Shown piece after piece: positions 34,347 to 38,730 of a DNA stretch of 64,000 bases. Both the position numbers and the translations under genes were made by a program. The stretch lies in the NCBI RefSeq assembly GCF_018476645.1, contig NZ_JAHCTB010000003.1, positions 62,001-126,000 of the forward strand, in the 5' to 3' direction. The number at the start of each line of letters is the position of its first letter. Within the stretch, counting starts at the first letter, position 1. Below the pieces are notes generated by a model. The model made no database searches. It had not been told where the DNA came from and worked only from the letters and a program-made list of their open reading frames with translations. Origin of the DNA: Aequorivita echinoideorum. GTDB taxonomy: Bacteria > Bacteroidota > Bacteroidia > Flavobacteriales > Flavobacteriaceae.

Positions 34347-34961
34347 TTACACCAAGCTGAATATGGCAACCGCATACAAATAAAAACGAACAAAGCGCAA
34401 CAAGCCAAAAAGCAAGTATTTTCTGAAACTGTAATTAATGGTCCCCGCTGCCATGCTCGTCATAGAATATGGAATGGGCAACAGCGCGCCCACTACAATA
34501 AGAAACCCACCCCATTTCTGGATATGTTTCAAATGTTTTTTCATTTTTCCTTCCATATAAGCGTACACCTTCGGAATTGTAAAAATCCATTTTCCGATGA
34601 AGTAAGAAATAATTCCACCTAAATAGGAAATGGCCGCGAGTAAGGAGAGATATAGAATTGGTTGTGGCATTTTATCGCTCCAGGCAATAAAAATTTCCGG
34701 CGGCACTAAACCCAACAAGGATTCTGAAGCAAGAAAAACCAGAAGGATATTTATGGGAGCGTAATTTTGGGTGATGTACGTAAACAAATCACTAAAGTCA
34801 ACAACAAATTGATCCAACAAAACCAAAGCTACAACTGCAAATATGATTGGAACAATGGCTTTTTTGAGACTTTGACCCACAAAATTGTAGAATCCAGTAT
34901 ACTTGTAATAAAGGTGTGCTCTCTTGATTTTATTCTTTTCTGTTCTTTTCACGGTGTTCAT
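34347..34961 (-). CDS. DedA/VTT-domain membrane protein
   Basis: 204 residues. VTT (SNARE-associated) domain: a re-entrant loop around SLLGLVPPEIFIAWSDK, GGIISYFIGKW, and a second motif GGFLIVVGALLPIPYSMTSM followed by FRKYLLFGLLRFVRFY. DedA relatives recycle or flip lipid carriers such as undecaprenyl phosphate or phosphatidylethanolamine. A -7 element at 34988 supports the ATG at 34961. Confidence 0.82.
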   Translation of the reverse strand: MNTVKRTEKNKIKRAHLYYKYTGFYNFVGQSLKKAIVPIIFAVVALVLLDQFVVDFSDLFTYITQNYAPINILLVFLASESLLGLVPPEIFIAWSDKMPQPILYLSLLAAISYLGGIISYFIGKWIFTIPKVYAYMEGKMKKHLKHIQKWGGFLIVVGALLPIPYSMTSMAAGTINYSFRKYLLFGLLRFVRFYLYAVAIFSLV

Positions 34962-34995: not shown

Positions 34996-35183
34996 ATTCT
35001 CTTTCATATTATTAACAATAAGGAACAACAACAATGCCGAAGATGGGTTAATGGGTTATATCCCAATTATTTTAAAATTCAAATAAAGTTAAGGTTTTGT
35101 TAATTCATTACTTTGTATTGCATAGTACTGTAACAATATTTCAAACGTGTCGTCTATTTAGTATAACCTTTAAAACTATAATT

Positions 35184-35270
35184 ATGAGAACCTTTGAGAG
35201 TATCCATTCCGCAGAAAAAATGAAATCTTCAAAAGCATATACTTGGAATTTAAAAAGAAGATTTCGATAA
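35184..35270 (+). CDS. 28-aa peptide, SKAYTWNxKRRFR family (copy 1)
   Basis: An ATG frame of 28 codons encoding a basic peptide beginning MRTFESI and ending SKAYTWNLKRRFR. The adjacent copy 2 ends SKAYTWNAKRRFR: 12 of the last 13 residues agree, and the codons for F and the last R differ synonymously (TTT CGA against TTC AGA). Both start MRT. No family recognised. The cluster ends at an intrinsic terminator, so it is probably one transcript. Too small for most gene callers. Confidence 0.6.
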   Translation: MRTFESIHSAEKMKSSKAYTWNLKRRFR

Positions 35271-35289
35271 CCTTTAATTTATAAGAATC

Positions 35290-35376
35290 ATGAGAACCTT
35301 AGATTCCAATGACACCCTTCACAGACCCAATACTTCAAAAGCATATACTTGGAATGCTAAAAGAAGATTCAGATAA
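35290..35376 (+). CDS. 28-aa peptide, SKAYTWNxKRRFR family (copy 2)
   Basis: Same length as copy 1, 19 bp downstream: begins MRTLDSN and ends SKAYTWNAKRRFR. The middle differs freely while the 13-residue tail is held. The five arginines and lysines in the tail suggest nucleic-acid, ribosome or membrane contact. There is no signal peptide and no cysteine, so a classical bacteriocin or lasso precursor is not indicated. Function unknown. Confidence 0.6.
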   Translation: MRTLDSNDTLHRPNTSKAYTWNAKRRFR

Positions 35377-35400
35377 CCAATCAATTCTAAAATTATATTT

Positions 35401-35532
35401 ATGAAAACCTTACGAAATATTCAAAATCGCATACGTGGCGCTTCCCAAAAACAGCATACGCTATATTTTCTTAGTGAGAGGCAATACAATCTTGAAGAAC
35501 CATCTATTCGAAAAACATGCAGATACATTTGA
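35401..35532 (+). CDS. 43-aa small ORF downstream of the paired peptides
   Basis: Starts MKTLRNIQNRIRG, sharing the M(R/K)T(L/F) opening and the preceding AT-rich leader with copies 1 and 2, but lacks the SKAYTWN tail; it ends KTCRYI. It may be a third, frame-disrupted or diverged member, since the ATG context is similar. The terminator begins 22 bp after its stop. Weaker support than the first two. Confidence 0.35.
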   Translation: MKTLRNIQNRIRGASQKQHTLYFLSERQYNLEEPSIRKTCRYI

Positions 35533-35553
35533 AAATCTTAAATGCGAAAAATT

Positions 35554-35586
35554 AAAAACTGAATCTCACAAACGGATTCAGTTTTT
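35554..35586. terminator. intrinsic terminator after the small-ORF cluster
   Basis: AAAAACTGAATC (35554-35565) / GATTCAGTTTTT (35575-35586) plus further T; can act in both directions, also for the convergent DUF1456 gene. Confidence 0.85.
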
Positions 35587-35862
35587 TTATTGCTTCTCCC
35601 CTTCCCCAGATTTTTTCTTTCGAGGCGCAGGTTTTTCCGGCATTGGGCCGCGCAAGTGTATTACAAGACCGTTCAAAAAATTTCTTAAAAATTGATCCCC
35701 GCATTCCATATATTTTTCGTGGCTTTCGTGTCTGAAAATTGCCCCAAGCTCACTTTTGGTTACACGGAAATCCACGAGCTCACATATTTTTACGATTTCA
35801 TCATCCCGTAGTTTGAGTGCCACACGCAATTTTTTCATGATATCATTATTGGAAAGTGCCAT
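35587..35862 (-). CDS. DUF1456 (YehS-like) protein, single domain
   Basis: 91 residues. ALSNNDIMKKLRVALKLRDD opens the DUF1456 domain, which ends at FLRNFLNGLVIHLRGPMP. A basic low-complexity tail follows (PRKKKSGEGEKQ). E. coli YehS has two such domains in about 156 residues; here there is only one. Function of the family is unknown. Convergent with the small-peptide cluster across a shared terminator. Confidence 0.85.
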   Translation of the reverse strand: MALSNNDIMKKLRVALKLRDDEIVKICELVDFRVTKSELGAIFRHESHEKYMECGDQFLRNFLNGLVIHLRGPMPEKPAPRKKKSGEGEKQ

Positions 35863-37860: not shown

Positions 37861-38730
37861 ATGAGACAACTTAAGATAACGAAGCAAGTTACCAACCGCG
37901 AAACAAAATCCCTTAACAGTTACTTACAGGATGTAAGTAAAATTGATTTAATCACTGCTGAAGAGGAAGTAGAGTTGGCACAACGCATTCGTGAGGGAGA
38001 CCAGCGCGCGCTTAATAAACTAAGTCGTGCAAATTTACGATTTGTGATATCGGTTGCCAAACAATATCAAAATCAAGGTTTGAGCTTACCAGATTTAATC
38101 AATGAAGGTAACGTGGGCTTAGTAAAAGCTGCTAAAAGATTTGATGAGACGCGTGGTTTCAAATTTATATCTTATGCCGTATGGTGGATTCGCCAAGCCA
38201 TATTGCAGGCCATTGCAGAGCAATCCAGAGTGGTCCGATTGCCTTTAAACAAAATTGGCGATATCAATAAAATTAAAAAAGCAGCAATCCACTTGGAACA
38301 ATTATACGAGCGTCCCCCTACTGCTGCCGAAATTGCAAAGGAATTGGACTTTAGTGTGCAAAAAGTAAAAAGTTCACTAAAAAATTCAACGCGAAGTCTT
38401 TCCATGGATGCTCCTTTTCAGGAAGGCGAGAATGATAACAATCTTTATGATGTAATCAGTTCCGGGCAAAGTCCCAATCCAGATAAAAGTTTAATCCACG
38501 AATCCCTGCGCATCGAGATTGATCGGGCTCTGGATACCCTAGCTCCACGCGAGGCAGATGTCGTTAAGTTGAATTTCGGTCTTTGTGGGCAGCCGCCTAT
38601 GACGTTGCAGGAAATTGGCGAAACCTTTGACCTAAGCCGCGAACGTGTACGCCAAATTCGTGAAAAAGCTATTAGAAGACTCCGGCAACAATCCAAAAGC
38701 CATATACTGAAAAAGTATCTTGGTCAATAA
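37861..38730 (+). CDS. rpoD: primary RNA polymerase sigma factor (Bacteroidetes type)
   Basis: 289 residues, the short form typical of Bacteroidetes that lacks the large region 1.1 and the non-conserved insert. Region 1.2 ([20 protein letters not shown]), region 2 ([35 protein letters not shown]), region 3 and region 4.2 ([20 protein letters not shown]) are all present. It recognises the -33/-7 (TTTG/TAnnTTTG) promoters seen throughout this window. A related sigma of the same class elsewhere in the genome cannot be excluded. Confidence 0.92.

Follow-up and report, generated by a model that had tools for sequence, protein, structure and literature searches.

PadR-linked PspC systems that are free of PspA have been defined through genomics, and we know of no effector described for them beyond the operon itself. 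Other described systems with which the locus studied here can be compared are RMF and Sra, small basic proteins that are induced by stress in Escherichia coli, and the type I toxins Ldr and Ibs, where tandem tiny open reading frames (ORFs) with antisense RNA encode hydrophobic membrane peptides. A HAAS-PadR pair has been proposed as a membrane-stress signalling alternative to two-component systems, of the phage shock protein (PSP) type, and the parts of that paper available to us name no effectors of HAAS-PadR/PspC systems (PMC11237479). On the side of the promoter, a CGT box at -10 marks extracytoplasmic function (ECF) promoters in Flavobacterium psychrophilum, also one of the Flavobacteriaceae, according to the accessible portion of the source (PMC9723704). 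Here we describe an operon of three tiny ORFs, ORF1 to ORF3, from Aequorivita echinoideorum (Flavobacteriaceae), located in a stretch of 64,000 nucleotides of contig NZ_JAHCTB010000003.1 (positions 62,001 to 126,000), which as a whole is referred to as the window. As judged from sequence, this operon is probably an envelope-stress-induced, high-dosage set of cationic microproteins that belongs to a Flavobacteriaceae regulon. Its elements, in coordinates of the window, are the following.

35107-35129, plus strand: 23-bp palindrome ATTACTTTGTATTGCATAGTACT, a probable PadR operator, which contains a TAnnTTG box
35130-35154, plus strand: ECF-sigma-type promoter GTAAC-N16-CGTC, then GTATAA, abutting the palindrome
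35184-35270, plus strand: ORF1, 28-amino-acid (aa) class A peptide MRTFESIHSAEKMKSSKAYTWNLKRRFR, ratio of nonsynonymous to synonymous substitution rates (dN/dS) 0.24
35290-35376, plus strand: ORF2, 28-aa class A peptide MRTLDSNDTLHRPNTSKAYTWNAKRRFR, dN/dS 0.26
35401-35532, plus strand: ORF3, 43 aa, basic, with a predicted amphipathic N-terminal helix, dN/dS 0.13
35554-35586, plus strand: intrinsic terminator, a 13-pair stem followed by a T run

We use class A for the family of 28-aa peptides to which ORF1 and ORF2 belong, and class B for a second tandem basic family, of 37 aa. An earlier note on this DNA, made from its letters alone, had singled out ORF1 and ORF2 as adjacent 28-codon frames with a conserved tail, followed by a third frame of similar start and by a strong terminator. 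These features were all recovered: both frames are present, their 13-residue tails agree at 12 of 13 positions, the last two tail codons are TTT CGA in one ORF and TTC AGA in the other, ORF3 begins with MKTL, and the terminator stem folds at -13 kcal/mol (z -5.3 against shuffles). With a promoter-like block ahead and a conserved terminator behind, the layout also fits the single transcript that had been proposed. When two mismatches are allowed, the DNA pattern of the core tail has four matches in the window against 0.30 expected, the two exact ones being ORF1 and ORF2, and these two are the sole sites of the full tail pattern in the whole genome at up to three mismatches. A scan with the sigma-70 consensus gave nothing above chance, as expected in Bacteroidota.

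A single-protein search of 59 genomes, in which matches with E>0.05 inside long ORFs were disregarded, found the 28-aa peptide in 26 of the 28 that belong to the genus, own genome included; the same peptides are present in Aequorivita antarctica and A. vitellina. The order ORF1-ORF2-ORF3 is intact at all 26 genus loci. The dN/dS values listed above were obtained by pairwise counts from 26 sequences for ORF1, 25 sequences of exactly 28 aa for ORF2, and 20 sequences of exactly 44 aa for ORF3, the 43-aa copy of the window being left out. Substitutions pile up at third codon positions, with about twice as many changes as at either other position in ORF1, and nearly so in ORF2. These values bear out the suggestion that the peptide, rather than the DNA, is under conservation and, on such coding signatures, the three tiny ORFs are real, conserved coding peptides.

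Homologues of the tail occur not only in the genus but also in the wider family; with the third-position excess, both outcomes that the earlier note had named as refuting it are contradicted. With a class A profile of 33 rows, matches at E<=0.1 came from 153 of 397 Flavobacteriaceae genomes, in 107 of 237 genera, and at E<=1e-3 from 125 of the 397, about one third (list compiled by hand); these family-wide counts rest on samples of genomes. A second class A profile matched 10 of 395 genomes drawn order-wide and 4 of 395 drawn phylum-wide, all matches being within Flavobacteriaceae, in draws that listed few genomes without a match and whose share of other families is uncertain. Across 99 distinct operons, class A copies number one (41 operons), two (48), three (8), four (1) or five (1), and the spacer has a median of 50 nt. 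Residues M1, W21, N22, R25 and R26 are invariant in a 33-member alignment of 28 ungapped columns, conservation is much the same at both ends of the peptide, and strong positive charge, tryptophan and an aromatic-basic tail, KRR[YF]R, are traits of the class. In one Flavobacteriaceae genome (G032), class A copies are found at six separate loci (L029-L034), two of them without the promoter, which suggests spread within that genome.

The supposition that no known peptide family would fit these ORFs also held, as profile searches of ORF1-3 against Pfam and NCBIfam at E<=10 returned zero families. A tblastn search of plasmids and phages with one 28-aa relative (from locus L120) gave no match. No paper describing these peptides was found in an open-access library that lacks most subscription journals; a literature search by letter strings left the peptide tails and motifs unmatched, and met the promoter core only in papers that by title deal with other subjects; and a term search of PMC12045153 returned nothing relevant to these peptides. 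Small-protein catalogues exist (PMC11364881 and PMC11796252, each accessible in part), and these may contain ORF1-3 as unnamed entries.

The block upstream of the first peptide is strongly conserved, and over 87 operons it has the consensus TGTTAAattA.TACTtTGTtaT.CATAGTACTGTAACAaa.tt...tt...gTCGTCTaT..agTAtAA, which consists of two parts, namely, the palindrome AGTACTWTGYAWTRCAWAGTACT and the element GTAAC-N16-CGTC. Of 60 distinct class A operons picked without regard to promoter, 53 have the latter element upstream. We take this as the fair count, since 39 of the 99 operons came from a scan with the compound promoter itself and the figure of 87 of 99 is biased upward; a previous, looser count had given 57 of 67 loci. 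The exact element is absent in eleven of the mixed 99 operons, including four where a small ORF precedes the copy that was found and two with one-base variants.

The palindrome was also searched for by itself. At up to three mismatches, 35107-35129 is the sole site in its own genome, and at up to two mismatches there are sites in 62 of 120 Flavobacteriaceae genomes, against 2 of 120 for a reversed-pattern control. Twenty-nine palindrome loci were classed, with the following results. First, 13 are class A peptide loci, one is a class B locus (L142), and one encodes a variant peptide with WNKRRHFR (L147). Second, 11 lie beside PadR/PspC/DUF4870-like genes (L138-L141, L143, L146, L148, L155, L157, L159 and L160); Pfam confirmed PadR and DUF4870 in L155 and PspC in L157, the others being classed by sequence resemblance. 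Third, the palindrome precedes a 187-aa secreted protein at L156 and, at L149 and L152, genes that by resemblance are carboxypeptidase-regulatory-like or receptor-type, a candidate further branch of the regulon. The genome of A. echinoideorum has one PadR, in an operon with DUF4870 and a PspC-LiaF-Toastrack protein, and 39 bp upstream of the DUF4870 gene of this psp operon there is a palindrome copy with mismatches at 4 of 23 positions. The same probable operator is found at the peptide operon and at padR-pspC operons, as would be expected of targets of a HAAS-PadR/PspC system, and PadR is probably a repressor that acts through the palindrome.

For the second part of the block, the pattern TGTAAC-N15..17-CGTCT has five sites in the genome against two for a reversed control; besides the peptide operon, two precede genes for secreted proteins, namely, a 169-aa protein and a carboxypeptidase-like receptor, at a distance plausible for a promoter, and the other two are apparently due to chance. 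There are 16 matches to sigma-70 region 2 in this genome, one of them below the family cut-off, and a perfect GTAAC-N16-CGTC is found at one of these 16 genes, an ECF gene of 168 aa (G000:C21:283559-283744, minus strand), 59 bp upstream of it; repeating the scan from frame starts added none. Behind the ECF gene come a 145-aa protein with one apparent transmembrane segment, a probable anti-sigma factor, and a DUF4252 protein. The peptide operon and an ECF gene thus have in common a -35 GTAAC and a -10 CGTC at fixed spacing, as would members of an ECF regulon, and this DUF4252-linked ECF is the best candidate for the sigma factor that would read the peptide promoter. An RpoD-like sigma gene is present in the window (37861-38730), and a second RpoD-like gene elsewhere in the genome (G000:C20:35869) has upstream a GTAAC..CGTC-like element with one mismatch.

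The compound promoter was also used as a probe. A pattern derived from class A promoters, CATAGTACTGTAACA-N14..16-CGTC, matched at least 117 stretches in a collection of 84,980 species, and all 80 loci listed were examined. Among them, at >=15 bits, 45 have class A only, 26 class B only, two both and seven neither; that is, in 73 of the 80 listed loci the promoter drives peptides of class A, of class B or of both, and with a looser cut-off 48 have class A. The consensus of class B is MRAxxxxTPTESRxxSxFSxFKNSKRVQWAxYRNYxR. The seven loci with neither class comprise two class C sets of 33-36 aa (Gramella, Christiangramia), one 43-aa ORF ending in WNGRRRFGY, two with a larger secreted protein, one with another ORF, and one that is cut off. 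At 75 of the 80 listed loci there is a short ORF within 135 nt, and these first ORFs have a mean net charge of +5.8, against +2.3 in 2755 control ORFs; a charge of at least +4 is reached by 70 of the 75 (30% of controls), and tryptophan is present in 72 (37% of controls).

Class B occurs in 57 of the 397 Flavobacteriaceae genomes, and the two classes, both at E<=1e-3, rarely coincide, in five genomes, an odds ratio of 0.18 by a Fisher's test that ignores phylogeny. An hhalign comparison of class A with class B gave a weak alignment in the SK...W...R region (probability 17.5%), so common descent is possible. The same promoter slot is occupied by peptides of 28 aa (WNxKRR[YF]R), of 37 aa (SKRVQW) and, in Gramella, of 33 aa, which suggests that lineages keep the promoter and the dosage arrangement, whereas the peptide itself is replaced or is now too divergent to be recognized easily. 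A promoter scan can in this way connect microprotein families that sequence searches scarcely link. Some further genes were seen around these promoters. The third tandem set, in Gramella and Christiangramia (L175, L230), includes for example MTTLVSNTKSRRSFMTTEANSSQFSFSSKRRYF, under a compound promoter; a secreted protein (MKTTQSKQNEIKSYSKYLLTFLLSVLF..., about 190 aa in L156, where a Pfam search gave no match) is under the same promoter or palindrome in L188, L228 and L156, and is possibly a further effector of the same regulon; and a small ORF of about 38 aa, METLYPHQxRPRIYF..GWxTDRxYD, opens several class B operons (L200, L206, L214, L229, L233 and others).

ORF3 is found at 26 of 26 genus loci, with 43 aa in the window and 44 aa in most relatives. 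Across class A operons, an ORF of 40-47 aa starts within 90 nt of the last class A copy in 68 of 96, the control rate at 1920 places picked at random within these loci being 4.9%; the length is exactly 44 aa in 45 of these 68 ORFs, many end in WKGxKRYAH or similar, and a few resemble chance ORFs. The helical hydrophobic moment over residues 2-19, taken from these 68 sequences and that of the window, is 0.437, against 0.258 for permuted columns, and 2 of 2000 permutations reach the observed value. The best 15-residue Kyte-Doolittle mean of the ORF3 set has a median of 0.05, the two outliers being apparent chance ORFs. AlphaFold predicted a single helix for the ORF3 of the window, to which we give low weight (mean predicted local distance difference test score, pLDDT, 73.6; predicted template modelling score, pTM, 0.34). 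By its recurrence and its substitution pattern, ORF3 itself is a conserved part of the operon. The earlier note thus stands for the coding ORFs and their layout, and what goes beyond it is the compound promoter with its regulon, the family-wide spread, the conserved ORF3 and the second peptide family.

The regulatory part of our reading is based on a palindrome common to padR-pspC operons and on a promoter common to an ECF operon, each of which has genes for membrane proteins nearby; the effector part is based on composition, namely, basic peptides with tryptophan and an aromatic-basic C-terminus, tandem dosage, absence of a hydrophobic stretch, and the amphipathic helix of ORF3. From these we infer binding by PadR and the ECF factor, induction by envelope stress, and abundance of the products, as follows. 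In unstressed cells, the palindrome at 35107-35129 would be occupied by a repressor of the PadR family that the DUF4870-PadR-PspC operon encodes. Upon envelope damage, the PspC/HAAS membrane sensor would let go of PadR, and the ECF sigma factor, released by its anti-sigma factor, would initiate transcription at GTAAC-N16-CGTC. One short mRNA would then yield two 28-aa peptides and one 43-aa peptide in abundance, the tandem copies providing dosage. These peptides would most likely be stoichiometric cytoplasmic coat or binding proteins on an anionic surface, in the first place perhaps the inner side of the membrane under stress, where anionic lipids would be contacted by ORF3 through its amphipathic basic helix and by the 28-aa peptides through their tryptophan and KRR[YF]R tail. 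The membrane as site of action is a tentative choice, somewhat short of even chances, which we place ahead of the ribosome or RNA. More generally, we see balanced prospects for the proposal that tandem cationic microproteins of 28-44 aa under a compound PadR/ECF promoter are an effector arm of a PSP-like HAAS-PadR response in marine Flavobacteriaceae, in which lineages swap families in the promoter slot.

Several observations weigh against this envelope-stress reading. Class A and class B peptides have no helical amphipathicity, with moments at or below chance, which disfavours a membrane-inserted helix for both. Two of the 28 genus genomes have no match to the peptide, seven of the 60 operons picked without regard to promoter miss the exact GTAAC-N16-CGTC, and five of the mixed 99 lack the exact element, any one-base variant of it and a small ORF ahead. 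The palindrome at the psp operon of A. echinoideorum is diverged, as described above, and the promoter specificity may be common to several ECFs. Finally, in 22 of 73 loci compared (including L117, L120 and L123), the same strand carries downstream an ExbD-family gene (Pfam) that starts no more than about 1 kb from the first peptide, so that co-transcription and an ExbD-tied role are possible in those lineages.

The most serious alternative, unlikely as we judge it, keeps the same regulation and takes the peptides as ligands of RNA or the ribosome, that is, basic extended peptides binding rRNA in stressed cells. Small basic ribosome-bound proteins such as RMF, Sra and bTHX would be analogues. 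The strong positive charge, the tryptophan and the aromatic-basic tail would suit such a role, as would the lack of amphipathic helix character in classes A and B, and tandem dosage fits a stoichiometric ribosome factor. However, the linked regulator operon codes for membrane proteins, and the 28-aa family has no Pfam match and no significant profile match in the PDB: the best hit in a search with this family only (42 rows, one row with one mistyped residue) was the start of eukaryotic ribosomal protein L9 at E 1.6, which is chance level.

Far less probable is that the ORFs encode precursors of secreted modified peptides, namely, ribosomally synthesized and post-translationally modified peptides (RiPPs) such as the radical-SAM triceptides, of which darobactin is an example, with W-N-x-K as the core. 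Tandem short precursors with a conserved aromatic-basic C-terminus are compatible with this idea, and W-N resembles the darobactin core. Nevertheless, the N-terminus, as noted, is conserved to about the same degree, and no convincing radical SAM gene was found in the flanks of 153 loci, which vary in length: a restricted radical-SAM motif had two matches, both in short lipoprotein-like ORFs, and plain CxxxCxxC in frames of at least 200 aa had one match of unassigned identity. A maturase gene beside the precursor was thus not found at these 153 loci, and we rejected the RiPP reading on its neighbour genes.

Slimmer still are the chances of a translational attenuator, in which the basic tail would stall ribosomes and control a downstream gene. 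Arrest motifs of the +X+ type provide a model for such stalling; KRR[YF]R lies at the extreme C-terminus, in several copies in a row, and the same-strand ExbD gene mentioned above could be a target. In the window, however, ORF3 is followed by the terminator, whose stem is kept in the genus alignment, and then by a gene on the opposite strand, so that no gene to be regulated follows there in the same transcript. The two genes that flank the region are the following.

34347-34961, minus strand: VTT-domain (DedA-like) gene, by Pfam
35587-35862, minus strand: DUF1456 gene, by Pfam

Among relatives, 40 of 94 operons have a terminator-like stem within 130 nt of the last small ORF; for places picked at random the figure is 29 of 940. 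By eye, many of the gaps between peptides and ExbD hold a recurrent TGGTATTGTTTTTGTG-like element, which suggests a separate promoter for ExbD. Some genes of the flanks are shared by subsets of the 73 loci compared, the commonest by 43. Lastly, a regulatory RNA with incidental ORFs, already disfavoured and hardly credible, would be in keeping with a short transcript from between genes that has a promoter-like block and a terminator to itself, but is opposed by dN/dS of 0.13-0.26 with third-position excess, by compensatory changes in just 5 of 40 predicted pairs (three of them in the terminator stem, in a genus alignment of 19 sequences) with little structure found elsewhere across the transcript, and by an Rfam scan of the window that gave no match.

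Our preferred reading of a stress-induced set of cationic microproteins would add a candidate for an effector family whose promoter code can be read, which occurs in 125 of 397 Flavobacteriaceae genomes and has no match in Pfam or NCBIfam. Three questions then become open to direct tests: which targets HAAS-PadR has, what joint control by ECF and PadR integrates, and what role a 28-aa basic peptide, duplicated several times over, has when a Gram-negative cell is under stress.

When compared with known systems, the peptides resemble RMF and Sra in being small, basic and presumably stress-induced, but they differ in their tandem multi-copy operon, in PadR/ECF-type control, and in having no Pfam match. 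With Ldr and Ibs they share tandem repeats of tiny ORFs, whereas the peptides described here are hydrophilic and strongly basic; they do not fit a type I toxin, as there is no hydrophobic membrane-spanning stretch (best 15-residue Kyte-Doolittle mean of 0.28 for class A, with 42 rows, and of 0.01 for class B, with 25). The promoters resemble the SM6 promoters of F. psychrophilum, since an ECF/anti-sigma pair is among the SM6-promoted genes, but the genes named in the accessible portion of that work encode the type IX secretion system (T9SS), Band-7 and others, with no small peptide operon, and the likeness concerns the -10 box (PMC9723704). Another close system is the PSP-like HAAS-PadR/PspC/LiaF/Toastrack one, since a palindrome like that of its operon precedes the peptide operon, but the partners named in the available parts of its description are membrane and cytoplasmic domains, with no tandem microprotein operon (PMC11237479), and ORF1-3 contain no Pfam domain. 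The type of regulator and the type of ECF promoter are known, whereas the peptides and their link to both were absent from the libraries and the open-access literature searched.
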